Source: an uncultured Prochlorococcus sp. (GTDB lineage: Bacteria; Cyanobacteriota; Cyanobacteriia; PCC-6307; Cyanobiaceae). From it: DNA of 46,056 bases. The first letter of the stretch is position 1, and each line of letters starts with the position of its first letter. Below, one piece after another: positions 38,576 to 46,056 of the stretch. The stretch is from the NCBI GenBank assembly GCA_902519235.1, contig CABYJE010000007.1:1-46056 (forward strand), in the 5' to 3' direction. The notes below the pieces were generated by a model that ran no database searches, was not told the DNA's origin, and saw nothing but the letters and a program-made list of their open reading frames with translations. A program made the position numbers and the translations under genes.

Positions 38576-40105
38576 ATGGACTCAGAAACGAAATTACATG
38601 AAATAAAAAAACCAATAATGGTCCTTGGCACTTCAAGTGGAGCAGGAAAATCGTTAACTGTTACCGCTATTTGCAGGATTCTTAAAAATTTAGGAGAAGA
38701 GCCAATACCTTTTAAAGGACAAAATATGAGTAACAACGCTTGGGTTGATTGGGAAGGTGGAGAAATGGCATATTCCCAGGCACTTCAAGCTTTTGCTTGT
38801 GGAATTACGCCTTCAGCAGAGATGAATCCCATTTTATTAAAACCTCAAGGCAATTCTACAAGTGAGGTGATTCACCTTGGTAAAAGTATAGGTATATCAA
38901 CTGCAAAAAATTACTATAAAGATTGGTTTATTCCAGGTTGGGAGGTAATTAAAAAAAGTCTAGATTCTATTTATAGGAGGAGCCCAAATTGTCGTTTAAT
39001 TATCGAAGGAGCTGGTAGTCCAGTAGAAATGAATTTGATTCATAGAGATCTTACTAACTTAAAAGTTGCAAAGTATTTAAATGCAAATTGCATTTTGGTT
39101 ACTGATATTGAAAGAGGGGGAGTATTTGCGCAAATAATCGGAACTCTTGAATTAATGAAACCAGAAGAAAAAAAACTTATTAAGGGAATAATTATAAATA
39201 GATTCAGAGGAGACCTTTCATTATTTAAAAAAGGGAAAAAATGGATAGAGAGTAAAACTCAAATTCCTGTTATTGGCATTATTCCATGGCTAAATGATAC
39301 ATTCCCGCCAGAAGATTCACTAGATTTATTAGACAGAAAATCTCGATACAATAATCCTGAAATAAAAGTAGGAATTATAAAGTTACCATCTATAAGCAAC
39401 TTTTCAGATTTTGATCCATTAGAAAATGAAGAATCAATATTAATCGAATGGGTAAGAGAATCTCAGAACTTAAATAAATTTGATTTTATTATTCTTCCTG
39501 GAAGTAAACAAACTATTAAAGATCAAATTTTTCTTGAGGAATGTGGTTTATCTCAGGATATAAAAGATTATTCAAATAATAAAGGAAATATTATTGGCAT
39601 TTGTGGAGGTTTACAAATGTTAGGAACATCTCTTGAAGATCCTTTTTTAAAAGAGGGATCCAAAAATTATTCAGAACAAAAAATAAAAGGCATTGGATTA
39701 CTTCCAATAAGAACCACTTTCTTAAAAAAAAAATTAACACGTCAAATCAACTCTAAATCTTTATGGCCCTGCCAATCAAAAATCAATGGATTTGAAATTC
39801 ATAATGGCCAAACTGAACTAGATAATACCCCAAGTGCGTTAAATGTTAACCCAATTTTTAAAGATGTTGATCTTGGTTGGTATAAAGAGAATAAAAAAGG
39901 TGGGACAATTGCAGGTACATACATTCATGGAATTTTTGAAAATGATAATTGGAGAACTCAATACATAAATTTAATAAGGAGGAGCAAAAATTTACCTATA
40001 TTAGATATGAAAGCAACATCTTATAAAATGAAACGTGAATCAATTATTAACAATCTCGCAAATGAATTTGATAAGTATTTAAATCTCTCATCATTATTAA
40101 ATTGA
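38576..40105 (+). CDS. cobQ: cobyric acid synthase
   Basis: A 509-residue glutamine-dependent amidotransferase that amidates four carboxyls in (pseudo)cobalamin synthesis. N-terminal P-loop VLGTSSGAGKSLTVTAICRI and FKGQNMSNNAWV form the ATP/dethiobiotin-synthetase-like domain. C-terminal glutaminase domain has IIGICGGLQMLG (Cys nucleophile) and GTYIHGIFENDNWR (His). Full length. Its stop overlaps the start of the small ferredoxin gene (TTGA). Confidence 0.97.
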   Translation: MDSETKLHEIKKPIMVLGTSSGAGKSLTVTAICRILKNLGEEPIPFKGQNMSNNAWVDWEGGEMAYSQALQAFACGITPSAEMNPILLKPQGNSTSEVIHLGKSIGISTAKNYYKDWFIPGWEVIKKSLDSIYRRSPNCRLIIEGAGSPVEMNLIHRDLTNLKVAKYLNANCILVTDIERGGVFAQIIGTLELMKPEEKKLIKGIIINRFRGDLSLFKKGKKWIESKTQIPVIGIIPWLNDTFPPEDSLDLLDRKSRYNNPEIKVGIIKLPSISNFSDFDPLENEESILIEWVRESQNLNKFDFIILPGSKQTIKDQIFLEECGLSQDIKDYSNNKGNIIGICGGLQMLGTSLEDPFLKEGSKNYSEQKIKGIGLLPIRTTFLKKKLTRQINSKSLWPCQSKINGFEIHNGQTELDNTPSALNVNPIFKDVDLGWYKENKKGGTIAGTYIHGIFENDNWRTQYINLIRRSKNLPILDMKATSYKMKRESIINNLANEFDKYLNLSSLLN

Positions 40106-40353
40106 AAAAATCAAAAATTAAAATTATTTGGCCAAATAATAATGAAACATATGTTTCAGAGGGAGATGATTGGTTCTCAAGCGCAGAAAAAGCAGGTTTA
40201 GAAATTCCTACTGGCTGCTTGACAGGCAGTTGCGGTGCATGTGAAATAGATGTAAATGGGAAAACGATAAGGGCTTGTATAAGTGATATTAAAAGTAAGA
40301 AACAATCCTTTTTAAAAGTTTCTTTAACTACAGACCCATTTTGGGAAAACTAA
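40102..40353 (+). CDS. small plant-type 2Fe-2S ferredoxin
   Basis: An 83-residue ferredoxin. GCLTGSCGACEIDVNGKTIR and ACISD hold the four cluster cysteines (C-X4-C-X2-C ... C). It is shorter than photosynthetic ferredoxin and lacks its N-terminal part. The TTG start at 40102 overlaps the cobQ stop, so it is coupled to cobQ and might give electrons to a cobalamin step such as cobalt reduction; this is inference from position. Confidence 0.85.
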   Translation: MKKSKIKIIWPNNNETYVSEGDDWFSSAEKAGLEIPTGCLTGSCGACEIDVNGKTIRACISDIKSKKQSFLKVSLTTDPFWEN

Positions 40354-40366
40354 AGTTTTGCTTTCT

Positions 40367-42196
40367 TTAATATAAAAAATTCAACTTAATGCCAAATCTA
40401 AATTCCTTATTTTCAACAAGTTGACCGATATCCTGAATACCAGGAGCATTAGAGTAGTATAAATCAACTGATTTATCTTGGGCATAAGAATATCTAAATG
40501 CGTAGGTCAAATTTAAATCAGAATTATTTTTTAATGAAGTATTTATCTCTGGGATAAACTGCAAATTTTCTAGCAGATTTATATTGCTCGAAATGCCCAA
40601 ACCTCCAAAACTCTCAAGCCCACTATAAAAATATTTAGGGCTAATATTTAATGCCAACCAATCATTAAATCTAAAAGTATTTAGCAATTCAGAGAACATG
40701 TAACCTTGATGGTTTGAACCTTCATTCCTTCCTAAAGATGTTCTTAGTGTCATCCAAAAAAGATCATTCTTTTGAGGACTAAAAATTAATAGTTTCCCTC
40801 CAAATCTATAATTAAAAGCATTTTCATCAAAATATATATTTTGCAAGTTAGAGTTAGTTACATTTTTTAGATTAACGTCATTAAAAGATCCACTACTTAA
40901 TTCTATTTGGAATAAATTCGACAGAGAATAACCATAAGAGGCAAATAAGTTTCCTTTTTCATCATAATTTAAATTTATCTGACTTATTCCTTTCTCAGGG
41001 AACAATGCATTTCCCACTGTCAATCCTCCAAAAAGCAACAAATCATTATTCTTTTTTAAAGGAGCAATTTTAGTGTCTTCTAAAAAAGGTTTATAGTTCC
41101 CGCCTATGTAATAAAGTGGTTTATTATCTGAAGGTATTGTTAATAAAGAAGTAGAGGGCGTTAGGCCATATCCATTAGTAATTTTCCCCTCAATACCTAC
41201 AACAGGACTTACATCCCAATTAAAACCATAACTATAAATTGATTTCCTCTTAAAATTCAAATTTTCATCAAAGCTATTATTCCCTGGACCAAATAAATAC
41301 GTATATGAACTTATTAATTGTAAATTAGTAGCGATATCAAAATTTAATCCTGTCGCCAAGAAATAATTATCTCCATAAAAGTTTTCACCAACATTTTTAT
41401 CTCCTATTTTATCTGGTATAAAAGTTAAGCCTGGGACAATAGATAATTGTATTTGATTACTTAATTGACTAGTGAATGGGAAAGAAAATGAGTAAATAAA
41501 TTTCTCATATCTATCTGTGCCTACAGAATTATCAACCTCGTTATAAATACTTTTTTTATTACCATCTCCACTGCTAAAAACCCAATATTCTAAAGAGCTT
41601 GAAAAAGACAATGAATTTTTATAATCTTCTGATTCAAAAATTTGCTCCTTAAATGCTAGTGCAATACTTGCCCAATTATTTGGAATTAATTTTCCTCCAA
41701 TTAAATTATATAGTGGATCATCAGTTTCAGATAAATATAATGATAATAATGAATAATCGCCTAAACCATATTGAAATTTAAGGCCATAGTTTTGATGTCC
41801 AGTCCCTCCACCTGCTCCCCCATTAAAACTTGATACCCAATTAGTGGAGATAATAAAATCGCCAGAATTCAGAAAATTATTTAGGGGAATATGTGGTTGT
41901 ATTTCTAGTAATTCTTGTTTAATTTTTTGATGATTTATAAATTTATTTTTTTCATTTTTCTTCTTAAATAAAATTTCATCTGAGTTATTCTCTTTATTGT
42001 TTGTCTTTATATTTTTAAAGTATGTTTCATCATCATTATAAGATTTCCAAATAATTTTTAAATTATTTGATTTTTTTTCTATAACCTTCTCCCATATTAT
42101 TTTTTGCTCACTTGTTTCTTTTTTAATTTTCTCTGCTAAAGCATCAATTAAATTAAATAATTGACTAAATAGCAATATATAAAATATTAATCTCAT
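40367..42196 (-). CDS. outer-membrane beta-barrel protein
   Basis: A 609-residue exported protein. A signal peptide (about 1-22, FYILLFSQLFNLIDALAEK) is followed by a charged, lysine/asparagine-rich linker (25-100). Then comes a long series of alternating hydrophobic and polar strands, many ending in aromatic residues, e.g. YGLKFQYGLGDYSLLSLYLS and LNLTYAFRYSYAQ. The last strand, FRFGIKLNFLY, ends with an aromatic residue, as BAM-targeted barrels do. About 20 or more strands are likely. Probably a picocyanobacterial porin-like protein of unknown substrate. It is the last gene before the mobile region. Confidence 0.75.
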   Translation of the reverse strand: MRLIFYILLFSQLFNLIDALAEKIKKETSEQKIIWEKVIEKKSNNLKIIWKSYNDDETYFKNIKTNNKENNSDEILFKKKNEKNKFINHQKIKQELLEIQPHIPLNNFLNSGDFIISTNWVSSFNGGAGGGTGHQNYGLKFQYGLGDYSLLSLYLSETDDPLYNLIGGKLIPNNWASIALAFKEQIFESEDYKNSLSFSSSLEYWVFSSGDGNKKSIYNEVDNSVGTDRYEKFIYSFSFPFTSQLSNQIQLSIVPGLTFIPDKIGDKNVGENFYGDNYFLATGLNFDIATNLQLISSYTYLFGPGNNSFDENLNFKRKSIYSYGFNWDVSPVVGIEGKITNGYGLTPSTSLLTIPSDNKPLYYIGGNYKPFLEDTKIAPLKKNNDLLLFGGLTVGNALFPEKGISQINLNYDEKGNLFASYGYSLSNLFQIELSSGSFNDVNLKNVTNSNLQNIYFDENAFNYRFGGKLLIFSPQKNDLFWMTLRTSLGRNEGSNHQGYMFSELLNTFRFNDWLALNISPKYFYSGLESFGGLGISSNINLLENLQFIPEINTSLKNNSDLNLTYAFRYSYAQDKSVDLYYSNAPGIQDIGQLVENKEFRFGIKLNFLY

Positions 42197-42284: not shown

Positions 42285-42540
42285 TACGGAGAGGGTGTCA
42301 TCTGAAATCAGAATTGACCCTAGTATTCAGCAGTAATCTTAGGAATAAAAGATCAAACTGCTGAAAAAGATTCCATTTTCTACTACACCAAATCGGAAAA
42401 TGTTATTTTGTATTCCCCCAAAAATAACACTTTTTTAGGTGTTAGGGAACGCTAAAATAATACTCTAAATTCCGTCAGTTCGGTTGATATAACTGAGTTT
42501 GTATGCTACAATATTGGTATCTAAGTCGGACTATTTTCAA
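42285..42540 (+). repeat. att/promoter module, copy A
   Basis: A module shared with 44049-44305. It opens with TACGGAGAGGGTGT (42285-42298), perfect in both copies, and closes with a 60-bp promoter block (42481-42540) that is gapless and matches copy B at 48 of 60 positions. The distance between the two parts is 196 bp here and 197 bp in B, though the middle has diverged. The stretch 42197-42627 contains no convincing longer gene. Confidence 0.75.
42484..42512 (+). promoter_or_regulatory. sigma-70 promoter in module A
   Basis: TTGATA (42484-42489), a 17-bp spacer and TACAAT (42507-42512). Downstream, GTCGGA (42525-42530) can pair with TCCGAC (42570-42575), giving a leader hairpin. It directs transcription toward the 32-codon frame at 42628 and into the antisense of the lyase gene. 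Confidence 0.65.
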
Positions 42541-42627
42541 GTTCTTTTCTAAAGAATAATCTATTACTTTCCGACAGTAAAGATAAGAAATCAATCAAAA
42601 AATATAAACATTTCTATCTGAGAAATC

Positions 42628-42726
42628 ATGATTAGAACTGCAATAAAACACTTTATCAACACGACCGAGAAACACCCACTTGAACCTGCTCATCAAAAGA
42701 TCGCAGACTATCTGGCGAGTATCTGA
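42628..42726 (+). CDS. possible 32-residue peptide behind promoter A
   Basis: An ATG frame reading MIRTAIKHFINTTEKHPLEP, then AHQKIADYLASI. It begins 88 bases from the start of the hairpin region and lies where module B has the integrase gene. It overlaps the tail of the lyase gene by 19 bp on the other strand. It could be a true small protein, or what is left of a larger gene cut off when the lyase segment came in. Not recognised. Confidence 0.35.
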   Translation: MIRTAIKHFINTTEKHPLEPAHQKIADYLASI

Positions 42727-43616
42727 TCTAAAGTCTTTTCATCTGAGACAACAATGAAATCATCAAAGTGAATCGTTTGGTCGGGGTAACTCACTCCAAC
42801 TACTCGATCTCGATAGAGACCGATTCTGATATGACTTCGATTATACTTTCCACGCCAATCATAAGTGACACCATTATAATCAAACATCAATTCCCCATCC
42901 TTATAGACTCTCACAAACCCATCGTTATCTCTTGTATTGTAGATTCCAATCTTATATGTACTCCATTCCCCTAATGGAGTGAAACTTGCTGTACCATCAA
43001 CATCTCTGTCTTTACTTTCACTTCGGTACTTTTCCCATCTTTGAACCCAATTTCCTTCATAGTTTTTATACTTTGTATCAATACGATAAAGGTCCTTTTC
43101 CTTTTGACTCATAGATCGACGTGCATTTCCTCCGGTCTGTCCTCCTATTTTTAATCTATTTCCATTTTTATAATAACGTAATCCTATCAGAGGACTGACT
43201 TTTCCTGTTGATATCATATTTTTGAATTGAAAAAATAATACTCTGTCGTCGATATGAGTAAAATCCTCTGGAAGTCTTTTTCTGAAACTGATCCATATTT
43301 CTTTACCTAATGCCTTTTTAGGAAACGGTTGAAATTCTGCTCTTTCAGTGAATTCTTTTGTTCTTCCCTTTCGATCCACATTATATCCATCTTTCACAGT
43401 TACAGAGAGATACTGATTACCATCAGGATCTACCTTAATTTCAAATGGTTTGAGACCTGTACCCTTATCGTTAGTCGTAAATTTATTGGTTCTCAATCTT
43501 CCTACCTTTTCATTTTCAAAGTCCTCAACAAAATTCCAAGGAGATCGACCCTTTGAGTATGAATTACCAGTGGTAAAACATATCAAGATGAGAAAAAGGT
43601 ATACAAGTTTTTTCAT
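42708..43616 (-). CDS. exported polysaccharide-lyase-like protein
   Basis: A 302-residue protein from the ATG of MKKLVYLFLILICFTTGNSY, a clear signal peptide; a longer frame upstream would bury it. The mature part looks like the jelly-roll polysaccharide lyases related to heparinase I and glucuronan lyase: KEFTERAEFQPFPKKALGKE, IWISFRKRLPEDFTHIDDRV, LFFQFKN, GEWSTYKIGIYNTRDNDGFV, RVYKDGELMFDYNGV and the strand-rich end RSHIRIGLYRDRVVGVSYPD. Such enzymes cleave acidic polysaccharides by beta-elimination. Base composition is less AT-rich than the core genes. It lies between the two modules and is probably cargo. The exact substrate cannot be told. Confidence 0.7.
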   Translation of the reverse strand: MKKLVYLFLILICFTTGNSYSKGRSPWNFVEDFENEKVGRLRTNKFTTNDKGTGLKPFEIKVDPDGNQYLSVTVKDGYNVDRKGRTKEFTERAEFQPFPKKALGKEIWISFRKRLPEDFTHIDDRVLFFQFKNMISTGKVSPLIGLRYYKNGNRLKIGGQTGGNARRSMSQKEKDLYRIDTKYKNYEGNWVQRWEKYRSESKDRDVDGTASFTPLGEWSTYKIGIYNTRDNDGFVRVYKDGELMFDYNGVTYDWRGKYNRSHIRIGLYRDRVVGVSYPDQTIHFDDFIVVSDEKTLDQILAR

Positions 43617-43746
43617 GTCCGAAAAAAATTTTGAAATTTGATGTAACTGAAAGTCTATATCATTCTCGCGTTCTCTAAAGTCACCTGAATACACCATATA
43701 AAATAGATGTTTATTCTAAATTTTAGATCAACTGTCAACCAATAAA

Positions 43747-43806
43747 CCCCATCAAAATATTCTGTACCACATCAAAATTTCTTGTCCCCCATCATAAGAA
43801 GGTGTC
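43747..43806 (+). repeat. three tandem 20-bp iterons
   Basis: Units at 43747-43766, 43767-43786 and 43787-43806 share CCMCATCA at the start and TGTM or similar at the end (13-15 of 20 matches between pairs). A partial fourth unit, CCACATCTAAAAATAATC, lies at 43875-43892. They stand 131-190 bp upstream of the lyase start and 240-300 bp before module B. They may be recombinase arm sites or an operator. The gap 43617-44424 holds no convincing gene. Confidence 0.55.
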
Positions 43807-43815
43807 ACTTGAACT
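43797..43815 (-). repeat. degenerate third copy of the short att-like repeat
   Basis: On the minus strand, TTCAAGTGACACCTTCTT matches TTCAGATGACACCCTCTC next to the repeat of module A at 14 of 18 positions. TTCAAGT has the form of a tRNA T-loop, followed by GACAC and a degraded acceptor-like end. It overlaps the third iteron. Confidence 0.4.
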
Positions 43816-44048
43816 ATCTCCTAAATTGCTGAAATCGCACTGGTATTTTTATGGACTACATGGGGTTTTTTGTACCACATCTAAAAATAATCTAACTACC
43901 TTTTTGTCCTACCTATTTTCCTTAGATATAACCTATATTTCAAAATCAAAAAGTTATCTTACCATAAGATATTTTCTGAATTATCCTGTGATTGCAGTCT
44001 ATTTGGAGATCTTATAACACCATAAGTCTGCATGCAAAATTGGTGTAT

Positions 44049-44305
44049 TACGGAGAGGGTGTTCTCTGACTTCATTTTACAGTCTTGTACCTGACTTAGT
44101 TCTAGAAGATTGGATATATGAAATAGAGAATTCCACCACATTTTCTCCCACCCAAATCTCTAAATTATCAATTTAGAAACCTAAAAAATAATACAAATTA
44201 TGGGTATTTTGAACCCCTAATATTTGACTTAGTTTTTACCCAAATCGGTTGACACGACTGAGATCTGATGCTATAATATTGGTATCAAAGTCGGATAACT
44301 TTCAA
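44049..44305 (+). repeat. att/promoter module, copy B
   Basis: Second copy of the module: TACGGAGAGGGTGT at 44049-44062 and the 60-bp promoter block at 44246-44305. The short repeat is 1,764 bp from the one in copy A, in direct orientation, and the two enclose the lyase gene and the iterons. Here the promoter leads to the integrase gene. Confidence 0.75.
44249..44277 (+). promoter_or_regulatory. consensus sigma-70 promoter of the integrase gene
   Basis: TTGACA (44249-44254), exactly 17 bp, TATAAT (44272-44277): a perfect consensus promoter. The transcript should start near 44284 and have a leader of about 140 bases before the integrase ATG, including CCTTTTCCAAAGG, a small hairpin at 44306-44318. 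An integrase promoter this strong would normally need repression. Confidence 0.85.
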
Positions 44306-44424
44306 CCTTTTCCAAAGGTAATATATAACCTATCTGTCATCTTTGAGTCTGTTTTTTAGAAATTATATTCTTCGTTTTTTATAGAAAAAAACTTATCAAT
44401 AACCCAAACACATACAGGAAAGTT

Positions 44425-45672
44425 ATGACAACTTCTTACAAGGAATTCTTGCGTAAACCTTCTAATGGCAAGAGACAAAAATTTGGTTTAGGTGGTGGAC
44501 TCTATGGAGGCATTGAACCAACCAATAAAGGTGGAGGACATTTTCTATTTTGGAAGAACTCCAAATATGAAAAAAGACTAGGTAGTATTCCTAGAATCAA
44601 TGAAAAGAAAGCAAGAAGAACTGTTATTCAAATACAAGATTGGATTGCTAAAGGTAATCATCCAAAACTATTTGGAAAGACTTCTCAAGAGAAAAACCAC
44701 ACATTCAAATTTGCCTGTGAAAGATACCTTGAAACTATTGAGGGGAAAGGAAGCAGTATCAAACAAATTACTTTCCTAAACTATAAGAATCAACTTCTCA
44801 ATCAAGCAGTTCCCAGAATAGGTGCGGATACAAAACTCAAAGACCTTGAATGGAAAGATGAAACTAAAGGTAGAGAAATACTTTTGAGAATGACTGAAAA
44901 TCTTAGGGAAGGTAGAACTGGAGAACAGGCAAGAAAAGTCTTAGGAGTTTGCAGACAGGTATTTGATTATGCAATAGACCAAGGTTGGATGAGCAGAGGA
45001 ACTAACCCTGCACTTCATCCAAAAAAATGGAAGCAAGTGAAATCACATCATCCAACTATTACATGGGCAGAAGTTCCTCAGTTGATTGAAGACCTCAATA
45101 AAAATAAAGTTGAAGGATTTATTGAAACTGTTTTAGTAGTGAAGTTTATGATGATGACATTCCTTAGAGTTTCAACAGTTGTTCGCTTGCAATGGGATTG
45201 GATACAAGAAGTTGATGGGATTAGATGTTTCGTTATTCCACCAGATACTCAAGGACTAAAGAGAACTAAGACATCAATAGATGAAGGATCTGCACCTCCT
45301 CATCTCATCCCAATGACTCCAGAGATGGATGAACTTTTAGGGCAACTGAGGAATAAAACAGGATGGCAAGAATATATTTTCTACTCTCCTAGAGGTAAGA
45401 CTTACCCTCATATCCATGAAGATGTTCCTACTAAGCATCTAAAAAGACTTGGATATGCCGGAAAACTTACTGCTCATGGTTGGAGATCAGTTGTTCTGAC
45501 TGTTGGTCAAGATGTTTTGAAGTTTCCCTTTTACACTATCCAACGGCAGATGGGTCACTTACTTGGAGACAAAGTTCGTGAGGCATATGACAGAAGTAAA
45601 ATCCTTGAAGAAAGAAAAGAATTCTTAGACTCTTGGACTTGTGCATTATTTGAGCAAGGTCTAGTTACATAA
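44425..45672 (+). CDS. int: P4-type tyrosine integrase
   Basis: A 415-residue site-specific recombinase. The N-terminal arm-binding region (1-85) has GLGGGLYGGIEPTNKGGGHF and the GSIPRINEKKARRTV block of P4-type integrases. The core-binding domain spans about 93-200. The catalytic domain keeps Arg 248 (TFLRVST), a Lys near 279-282, His 351 and Arg 354 (AHGWRS), His 378 (QMGH) and Tyr 388 (EAYDRS). It ends SKILEERKEFLDSW, also typical. All key residues are present, so it is probably active. P4-type integrases mostly insert at the 3' end of tRNA genes. The promoter at 44249-44277 drives it. Confidence 0.95.
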   Translation: MTTSYKEFLRKPSNGKRQKFGLGGGLYGGIEPTNKGGGHFLFWKNSKYEKRLGSIPRINEKKARRTVIQIQDWIAKGNHPKLFGKTSQEKNHTFKFACERYLETIEGKGSSIKQITFLNYKNQLLNQAVPRIGADTKLKDLEWKDETKGREILLRMTENLREGRTGEQARKVLGVCRQVFDYAIDQGWMSRGTNPALHPKKWKQVKSHHPTITWAEVPQLIEDLNKNKVEGFIETVLVVKFMMMTFLRVSTVVRLQWDWIQEVDGIRCFVIPPDTQGLKRTKTSIDEGSAPPHLIPMTPEMDELLGQLRNKTGWQEYIFYSPRGKTYPHIHEDVPTKHLKRLGYAGKLTAHGWRSVVLTVGQDVLKFPFYTIQRQMGHLLGDKVREAYDRSKILEERKEFLDSWTCALFEQGLVT

Positions 45673-45830
45673 AAAAAATACCCCTGAATAGGAGTGCTGA
45701 GTACATTGTTAGCGTTTGAACTGGAGACAGAAAACTCAACTATTTTTAATTTTCAAATCCTCAATAAATTAATTTTTGAATGATTGTATGTTCTTTATTA
45801 AAATACAAATAATTAAGTTTGATAAAAGAT

Positions 45831-46056
45831 TTGAAATCCCCTATTTTCGTGACCCTTTTTTCATTAACTTTCTTGATATTTTCTTCAGATATCAAAGCAA
45901 GTAACAAACAAGATATTGCACAATGCGTTTCTGATGGTTTACAAAATGAGAATATGGAATCTTGGAGTAAAAGGGAAATTAGAGAGTTATGTACCTGCTT
46001 TGTCGATAATGATTCAGAAAGTTTGTCATCTGAGGCTCTGGGAGAAAAATGTGTAG
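45831..46056 (+). CDS. exported small cysteine-containing protein, cut by window edge
   Basis: The first 75 codons of a gene that runs off the right edge. From TTG 45831 it reads MKSPIFVTLFSLTFLIFSSD, a signal peptide, then SNKQDIAQCVSDGLQNENME and REIRELCTCFVDND, with a final cysteine near the edge. Four cysteines (C, CxC, C) suggest disulfides in the periplasm. The start codon is not certain because no ATG precedes it. Not recognised. It follows the integrase by 158 bp. Confidence 0.55.
   Translation, partial: MKSPIFVTLFSLTFLIFSSDIKASNKQDIAQCVSDGLQNENMESWSKREIRELCTCFVDNDSESLSSEALGEKCV

Follow-up and report, generated by a model that had tools for sequence, protein, structure and literature searches.

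The mobile elements closest to those considered here include the tycheposons of Prochlorococcus, summarized as elements of 4-200 kb with a tyrosine recombinase (PMC10872708), and the cis-mobilizable elements (CIMEs), for which PMC5704250 outlines a scheme in which a unit lacking an integrase and one that bears an integrase join by accretion at a tRNA end. Among the ssrA islands of Dehalococcoides, as reported in PMC3146451, 15 of 31 are without an integration module. Here, we analyze contig C7 of an uncultured Prochlorococcus sp. (46,056 bases, the whole of which is the window; the genome is G000), the right part of which holds two elements in tandem: element 1, with one lyase-like gene, and element 2, with a tyrosine integrase. 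The reading we favor, with a probability of about 0.76, is that the two were stacked by successive integration at the 3′ end of the tRNA-Ser(CGA) gene and that element 1 is an integrase-less mobile cassette.

With CIMEs, as outlined in PMC5704250, element 1 shares the lack of an integrase, the possession of both attachment (att) sites, a tandem position at a tRNA end and the same three-step build-up. Unlike the CIMEs of that outline, it measures about 1.8 kb, holds one gene and recurs in many genomes, where it stands beside further unit families that have fixed paired ends and go down to 260 bp, in a setting where no conjugative element is known. Keeping att sites without an integrase, element 1 may be called CIME-like and, by analogy, might be mobilized in cis. 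The Dehalococcoides islands are likewise arranged in tandem and bounded by copies of the 3′ end of an RNA gene, but in the account of PMC3146451 they are larger and depend on a serine recombinase and the tmRNA gene, whereas a tyrosine integrase and tRNA-Ser are involved here. Tycheposons resemble the present elements in genus, tRNA target, tyrosine recombinase and cargo genes (PMC10872708, PMC11389934); however, element 1 falls below the size range given for them and has no recombinase (PMC10872708). The term tycheposon-like island, applied to the locus in an earlier sequence-only reading, may suit element 2, which is incomplete but works like one, and does not suit element 1, which is too short (1.73-1.79 kb) and recombinase-free. 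The tRNA-Phe/tRNA-Cys integrase of PMC10187409 also concerns marine picocyanobacteria, a tyrosine integrase and variable islands at tRNAs, but it uses other tRNAs and is termed there distinct from tycheposon integrases; it is by this description that we set it apart. The additive island fGI-2 of Methylopumilus also contains repeated tRNA ends, in its case of 20 bp, in another host and at another tRNA, tRNA-Lys (PMC10872708). Our literature search found no description of small paired-end units at tRNA-Ser(CGA), which may still be in print. Prochlorococcus is a major photosynthesizer of the ocean, with streamlined genomes that keep gaining and losing single genes; in the present case, what is exchanged can be delimited exactly, as about 1.8 kb with one gene, fixed ends and a fixed target.

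The features on which the argument rests are the following.

38576..40353, plus strand: left chromosomal anchor, cobQ-like and ferredoxin-like genes, present in 39 of 39 fetched relatives
42285..42298, minus strand: att 1, a cut-off tRNA-Ser(CGA) 3′ end with core 42287-42297; left end of element 1, where the homology of the carriers begins
42285..44048, no strand: element 1, an integrase-less unit with one lyase-like gene and exact ends
42480..42540, plus strand: promoter-like block of element 1, TTGATA-17-TACAAT
42708..43616, minus strand: predicted exported polysaccharide-lyase-like protein (PF14099), the cargo of element 1; hydrophobic N-terminus judged by eye
44049..44062, minus strand: att 2, a second cut-off tRNA-Ser(CGA) end with core 44051-44061, where element 1 meets element 2
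44049..46056, no strand: left part of element 2, which runs past the contig end, presumably, on the basis of gene order, to tRNA-Ser(CGA) at G000:C41:111-197
44130..44158, plus strand: two C-rich words that are candidate arm-type sites of element 2, placed as the repeats of related elements are (p 0.2)
44245..44305, plus strand: promoter block of the integrase, TTGACA-17-TATAAT
44425..45672, plus strand: tyrosine integrase, 415 aa, with a PHROG match and conserved catalytic columns

The two att sites are exact same-strand copies of TACGGAGAGGGTGT (42285-42298 and 44049-44062), for which the window holds no third copy at up to 3 mismatches, where chance would give 0.63 matches. Behind each follows a promoter-like block of 61 nt, starting 195 and 196 nt past the start of its own repeat; the blocks (42480-42540 and 44245-44305) are 80% identical without gaps, and the sequence that separates block from repeat cannot be aligned from one copy to the other. 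A search of the whole window genome with this module gave no further strong match. The perfect 14-bp repeat, the near-constant spacing of the block behind it and the enclosure of the lyase-like gene by direct repeats, all noted in the sequence-only reading, are therefore confirmed.

Within the repeat, CGGAGAGGGTG is the reverse complement of the tRNA-Ser(CGA) 3′ end, its last 11 bp, a match that the sequence-only reading had missed. As cut-off ends of this tRNA, the repeats mark two tandem elements at an integration hotspot, and their earlier interpretation as attachment sites is supported. A chance origin is rejected by the repeat count in the window, the tRNA match and the orientation of the displaced tRNA ends. 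The tRNA gene itself lies at C41:111-197 of the window genome, 110 bp from the start of C41, a contig of 3,089 bp. For comparison, we took up to 20 kb from cobQ onward in 39 relatives, picked for good assembly or similarity from the 157 with a cobQ match among 200 genomes; the names cobQ, ferredoxin, maf and futA-like are our own reading. The order is maf, cobQ, ferredoxin, a variable stretch, tRNA-Ser(CGA) on the minus strand and a futA-like gene in 38 of the 39, the sequence of the remaining one (L065) stopping short of the tRNA, and the gap between ferredoxin and tRNA measures ~35 bp in G004. Since C41 bears the tRNA and the same right-hand genes as these loci, it most likely belongs to the right of C7. 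Whereas the sequence-only reading closed the island at 45672, element 2 extends beyond the contig, which ends 384 bp after the integrase, and the boundary is presumably the tRNA on C41. The junction of 42196 with 45831, proposed earlier as the sign of an empty site, was for this reason the wrong test.

A search with the left 416 bp of element 1 returned near-full matches in 7 of 266 genus genomes, the window genome included, with 89-97% identity in the other six and only short matches beyond them. All seven carriers (the window, G027, G185, G181, G244, G224 and G076) hold it at the same tRNA-Ser(CGA) locus; the contig of G244 stops inside the lyase gene. The ends are exact: in the window, G027 and G185, homology begins and ends at the att cores, and in the latter two, the intact tRNA occupies the position of att 2. 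In G027, G185, G181 and G224, element 1 has a cut-off tRNA end on one side and the intact tRNA on the other. Throughout a length of 1.73-1.79 kb it contains no integrase, as had been claimed, and it keeps both att sites. G076 is the second carrier in which another unit has displaced it from the tRNA, and the window alone has it arranged in tandem with an element of the same target that bears an integrase.

The case for movement comes from pairs of carriers. In G224 and G076, the left part, the lyase gene and the right part of element 1 are 99.0, 99.9 and 99.5% identical, against 87.6% for cobQ; identity is 97-100% inside the element and 36-53% outside, changing at the core on both sides. By contrast, G224 and G181 are close relatives (cobQ 96.1%) with flanks 95-100% identical, save the outermost left window (84%), and their versions of element 1 differ (65-100% by window) from within 20 bp of the left core onward, so that one version was exchanged for another between att sites. 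Judged by these alignments, element 1 is a unit that moved between species, exact in its ends and with a single gene, and hence more than a relic.

The most serious competitor makes element 1 a dead remnant of an integrase element: the integrase would have been lost on the spot, and all later spread would have come through homologous recombination of the chromosome around it. It would account for the missing integrase, the changed -10 box of several copies and the mosaic structure of some copies, and exchange of flanks does occur: a right-flank comparison of G185, G181 and G224 over 877-1500 bp gives 99.5% identity. The right flank of the window genome (futA-like gene) is 97-98% identical to those of the carriers L062, L139 and L140 and about 70% to those of G027 and G076, whereas its cobQ is only 85-88% identical to all of these, so that the right side was exchanged separately. 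Homologous exchange between copies occurs as well, since G027 and G181 have identical lyase genes and right parts of element 1 that are only 85.9% alike. Recombination of this kind, however, leaves the G224/G076 pair unaccounted for, in which units 99.0-99.9% alike sit between flanks that are unrelated on both sides, with the change at the att cores. Nor does it accommodate three left flanks of different origin, or the occurrence of this cargo at tRNA-Ser(GCT) and tRNA-Asn(GTT), again within bounded units. We consider this explanation unlikely. In the favored reading as well, the block of element 1 is probably the worn promoter of a lost integrase. A role as a still-needed promoter is doubtful, because the -10 box is altered in G185, G076 and G224 (it is unchanged in G027) and because no block was found when it was sought in the lyase units at tRNA-Ser(GCT).

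The cargo is predicted to be an exported polysaccharide-lyase-like protein. It matches PF14099 at E 7e-16 (59.1 bits; cut-off 29.9), as do all 12 of the 12 aligned homologues at E<=0.001; the predicted fold is poor (mean predicted local distance difference test score, pLDDT, 47), a PDB sequence search yielded two weak matches, to designed proteins only, and the phage collection yielded none. Homologues of at least 80% identity are full length in 14 genomes, the window genome included, in addition to a fragment at a contig end (G114). Seven of the 14 lie in element 1 and six lie 248 bp from tRNA-Ser(GCT), while no tRNA is found on the fetched contig of the G180 homologue. A cut-off tRNA-Ser(GCT) end bounds a lyase unit of 1,404-1,440 bp in five of those six loci (none was found in the sixth, L143), and a 72% homologue in G015 lies within a 1,491-bp unit at tRNA-Asn(GTT); these lengths leave no room for a lyase gene plus a 1.25-kb integrase. 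The fetched stretches around six homologues of 67-68% (L150-L155) showed neither a tRNA nor a cut-off end. The window genome also encodes a longer lyase paralogue, a 401-aa frame about 53% identical (G000:C10:1196-2218, L157), which by our count of matches at 52-55% occurs in 33 other genomes.

Element 1 is one of many units stacked at this tRNA. Exact 11-bp matches, a search that misses mutated ends such as that of G185, revealed displaced tRNA-Ser(CGA) ends in 22 of 43 loci, with no case of the opposite orientation; they delimit 24 units of 97-7,268 bp. When these 43 genomes were searched with PF00589, a recombinase fell inside one locus only (G142). With 20 further loci, chosen for carrying one right-end family, the survey covered 63 loci in 62 genomes and 44 att-bounded units, a single one of which has an integrase of the element 2 family, as counted on ATG-started frames of 70 aa or more. 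This unit (L070:4787-9803, G142) also encodes a serine resolvase, and its integrase points away from the tRNA. The units group by their end sequences, and in the largest group, with sizes from 260 to 6,052 bp, all 20 left ends are paired with the right end that matches them, 6 of the 20 units being from the 43 loci taken without selection. At 260-295 bp, five units have no room for a 100-codon gene, and the longest array seen, L236 (G214:C20), lines up five att-bounded units before the tRNA. Among the cargo are MrcB-like and GIY-YIG proteins (L141), one protein resembling HsdR (L231) and a zinc-finger protein (L236), with 3 of ten unit proteins lacking a match in a Pfam scan; a 7.3-kb att-bounded unit with other ends and no recombinase carries a type III methylase/restriction pair (L046:10682-15576, G050). 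This suggests that the islands of the genus grow, beyond large elements, partly by the stacking of small cassettes.

Empty sites were sought by comparing the 300 bp left of each carrier's element 1 with 64 loci, keeping matches that reached the last 15 bp. The flank of G244, common to G244, G181 and G224, produced 18 rows, two of which (L065 and L241) belong to a single genome, so that 17 genomes are represented, G244 among them. It is followed by the intact tRNA in 6 of the 17 (L043, L056, L064, L068, L072 and L076), which are empty sites, by element 1 in 3 (L138, L139 and L140) and by other units with an exact core in another 6 (L071, L074, L078, L231, L237 and L247); one genome has a unit with a mutated core and one a broken core with unrelated sequence (L075). 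Empty sites in relatives, which the sequence-only reading had put forward as a check, were thus found for this flank, and none for the left flank of the window itself.

Element 2 has an integrase of its own, apparently of the tycheposon type and a member of a genus-wide family located beside tRNAs. The protein matches PHROG 1 (E 2e-36) and, for the arm-binding, central and catalytic domains of the P4 type named in the sequence-only reading, PF13356, PF22022 and PF00589 in order, each under its cut-off (25.1 versus 27.1 bits for PF00589), and it also falls under the cut-off of NF007246 (E 5e-14). The integrase retains R248, K279, H351, R354 and Y388, taken to be its catalytic residues and complete as stated before; each of these columns is shared by 20 or 21 of the 21 family members. 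Relatives occur in 20 of 200 sampled genus genomes, the window genome included. A tRNA is present on 13 of the 19 stretches fetched around relatives' integrases, namely Ser(GCT), Ser(TGA) or Asn(GTT); in G142, a family integrase lies beside tRNA-Ser(CGA) in the opposite direction. Upstream of the integrase, 12 of the 13 loci have a cut-off end of the respective tRNA of 12-18 bp; in the exception, L174, the predicted tRNA end is shifted and the test failed. Displaced ends longer than usual were seen at L162:9362-9379 (18 bp) and L063:2841 (17 bp), and the length of the recombined stretch at tRNA ends may vary. The promoter block precedes 15 of the 21 family integrases at E<1e-6, a count biased upward by iteration of the model on some of these sequences; the model built from the two window copies alone found three integrase loci (L029, L026 and L024) at E<0.02. 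A cut-off tRNA end and the block upstream of the integrases thus make up the left end that elements of this family usually have, in agreement with the earlier assignment of the module to it. The pattern TTGACACGACT-N8-10-TGCTATAATA occurs in 4 of 266 genomes, always upstream of already known integrases. It was also seen in one IMG/VR contig (L197:6051-6080), where the neighbors looked phage-like and inspection of the listed frames, by eye rather than by profile, revealed no recognizable integrase. IMG/VR scans with short exact patterns for the integrase, the lyase and an element 1 word confirmed nothing; in the phage collection, the integrase has distant matches in 214 records, all below 60% identity and at 23-25% among the 20 matches listed.

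We propose that each integration would restore the tRNA and leave a cut-off tRNA end on the far side, and that the older element 1 would have been displaced from the tRNA by the later arrival of element 2. An integrase specific for tRNA-Ser(CGA), such as that of element 2, may move element 1 in trans or jointly after accretion. More generally, the integrase would recognize the core plus the arms of integrase-less units, either in trans or, after accretion, in cis. Arm-type sites were approached through 8-mers common to left and right ends, compared with Markov shuffles. Same-strand shared 8-mers exceed the shuffles (p<=0.01) in 10 of 11 integrase-bearing elements, L167 being the exception, and most of them lie 66-90 bp from the left core. 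The 36 other cases, comprising 34 units of at least 500 bp and the two elements of the window, have such words in 29 instances against 16.4 expected (22 at p<=0.02), for the most part equally far from the core; the cases lack independence and involve seven end families, one of them represented by the unit that encodes an integrase itself. Each family has words of its own, such as TCCCAACAACAT, TCCCAAACACAT, TCCCCACCATAT and TCCCCCAACATT. Their position and repetition point to putative arm-type integrase sites, against which it counts that L074, a member of the largest family, is not significant. A separate count of repeated 7-mers was significant for neither element 1 nor element 2.

Several observations weigh against the arms or against stacking of a mobile cassette. 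Opposite-strand shared words are frequent too (10 of the 11 integrase-bearing elements and 17 of the 36 others), so that same-strand repetition is not the whole evidence for arms, and it is the clustering at 66-90 bp that counts. In the window, significance is reached neither by element 1 (p 0.16) nor by element 2 (p 0.2, with its right end cut), and one of five tested copies of element 1 reaches p<=0.02 (G076, p 0.02). No integrase of this family was found at the locus of the other six carriers, so the mover can only be inferred. Copies of element 1 swap parts by homologous recombination, and the left core of G185 is mutated. The left flank of the window has two more distant matches (L070 and L240), neither of which continues into an att core or tRNA; C41:1-121, the right end of element 2, is matched by nothing else in the 266 genomes; and the join of C7 with C41 is not seen in the assembly.

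Elements 1 and 2 could instead form one composite with a shared integrase, element 1 never moving alone. They are adjacent here, and accretion followed by joint transfer is documented for other elements in PMC5704250, but with no family integrase beside element 1 in six other carriers, the partner would have to be lost each time, and we regard the composite as quite improbable. Duplication of one module within this genome, despite the same two parts at nearly equal spacing, is largely refuted and deserves almost no credence, because the sequence from repeat to block is not alignable between the copies and element 1 stands alone beside the tRNA in G027, G185, G181 and G224. The sequence-only reading was right in preferring two independent insertions of related elements at one site, here separate insertions at the tRNA end, to a recent duplication.

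There is also a broader proposal, to which we give somewhat less than even odds: tRNA-Ser(CGA) would anchor an integron-like gene-capture system, in which short integrase-less attP cassettes, all in one orientation, are driven in trans and exchanged between species, the lyase being packaged for three tRNA targets. Equally tentatively, each cassette would be a complete attP, consisting of a core and both arms, with a cargo that ranges from no gene at all to a few exchangeable ones, and integrases of the tycheposon type would be the drivers. Integron cassettes, and arrays of the CALIN type (clusters of attC sites lacking integron-integrases), are small units without an integrase of their own, with exchangeable cargo, placed in arrays. 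By this general description the arrays are alike, whereas the sites here are tRNA 3′ ends.

Two open frames complete the annotation of the island.

42630..42728, plus strand: 32-codon open frame, probably no gene
45819..46056, plus strand: start of a small, probably exported protein, an open frame cut by the contig end

The former, described in the sequence-only reading as driven by the block of element 1, is rejected as a gene: the start codon is absent in G027, and there is no NCBIfam match. The latter has no Pfam match, and tblastn gave no match in 40 cobQ-anchored loci or in 40 lyase/integrase loci. To the left of the island, the large barrel-like gene at 40367-42196 is missing from many relatives and looks broken in L053; elsewhere it falls into two classes, about 52-55% and 78-80% identical.

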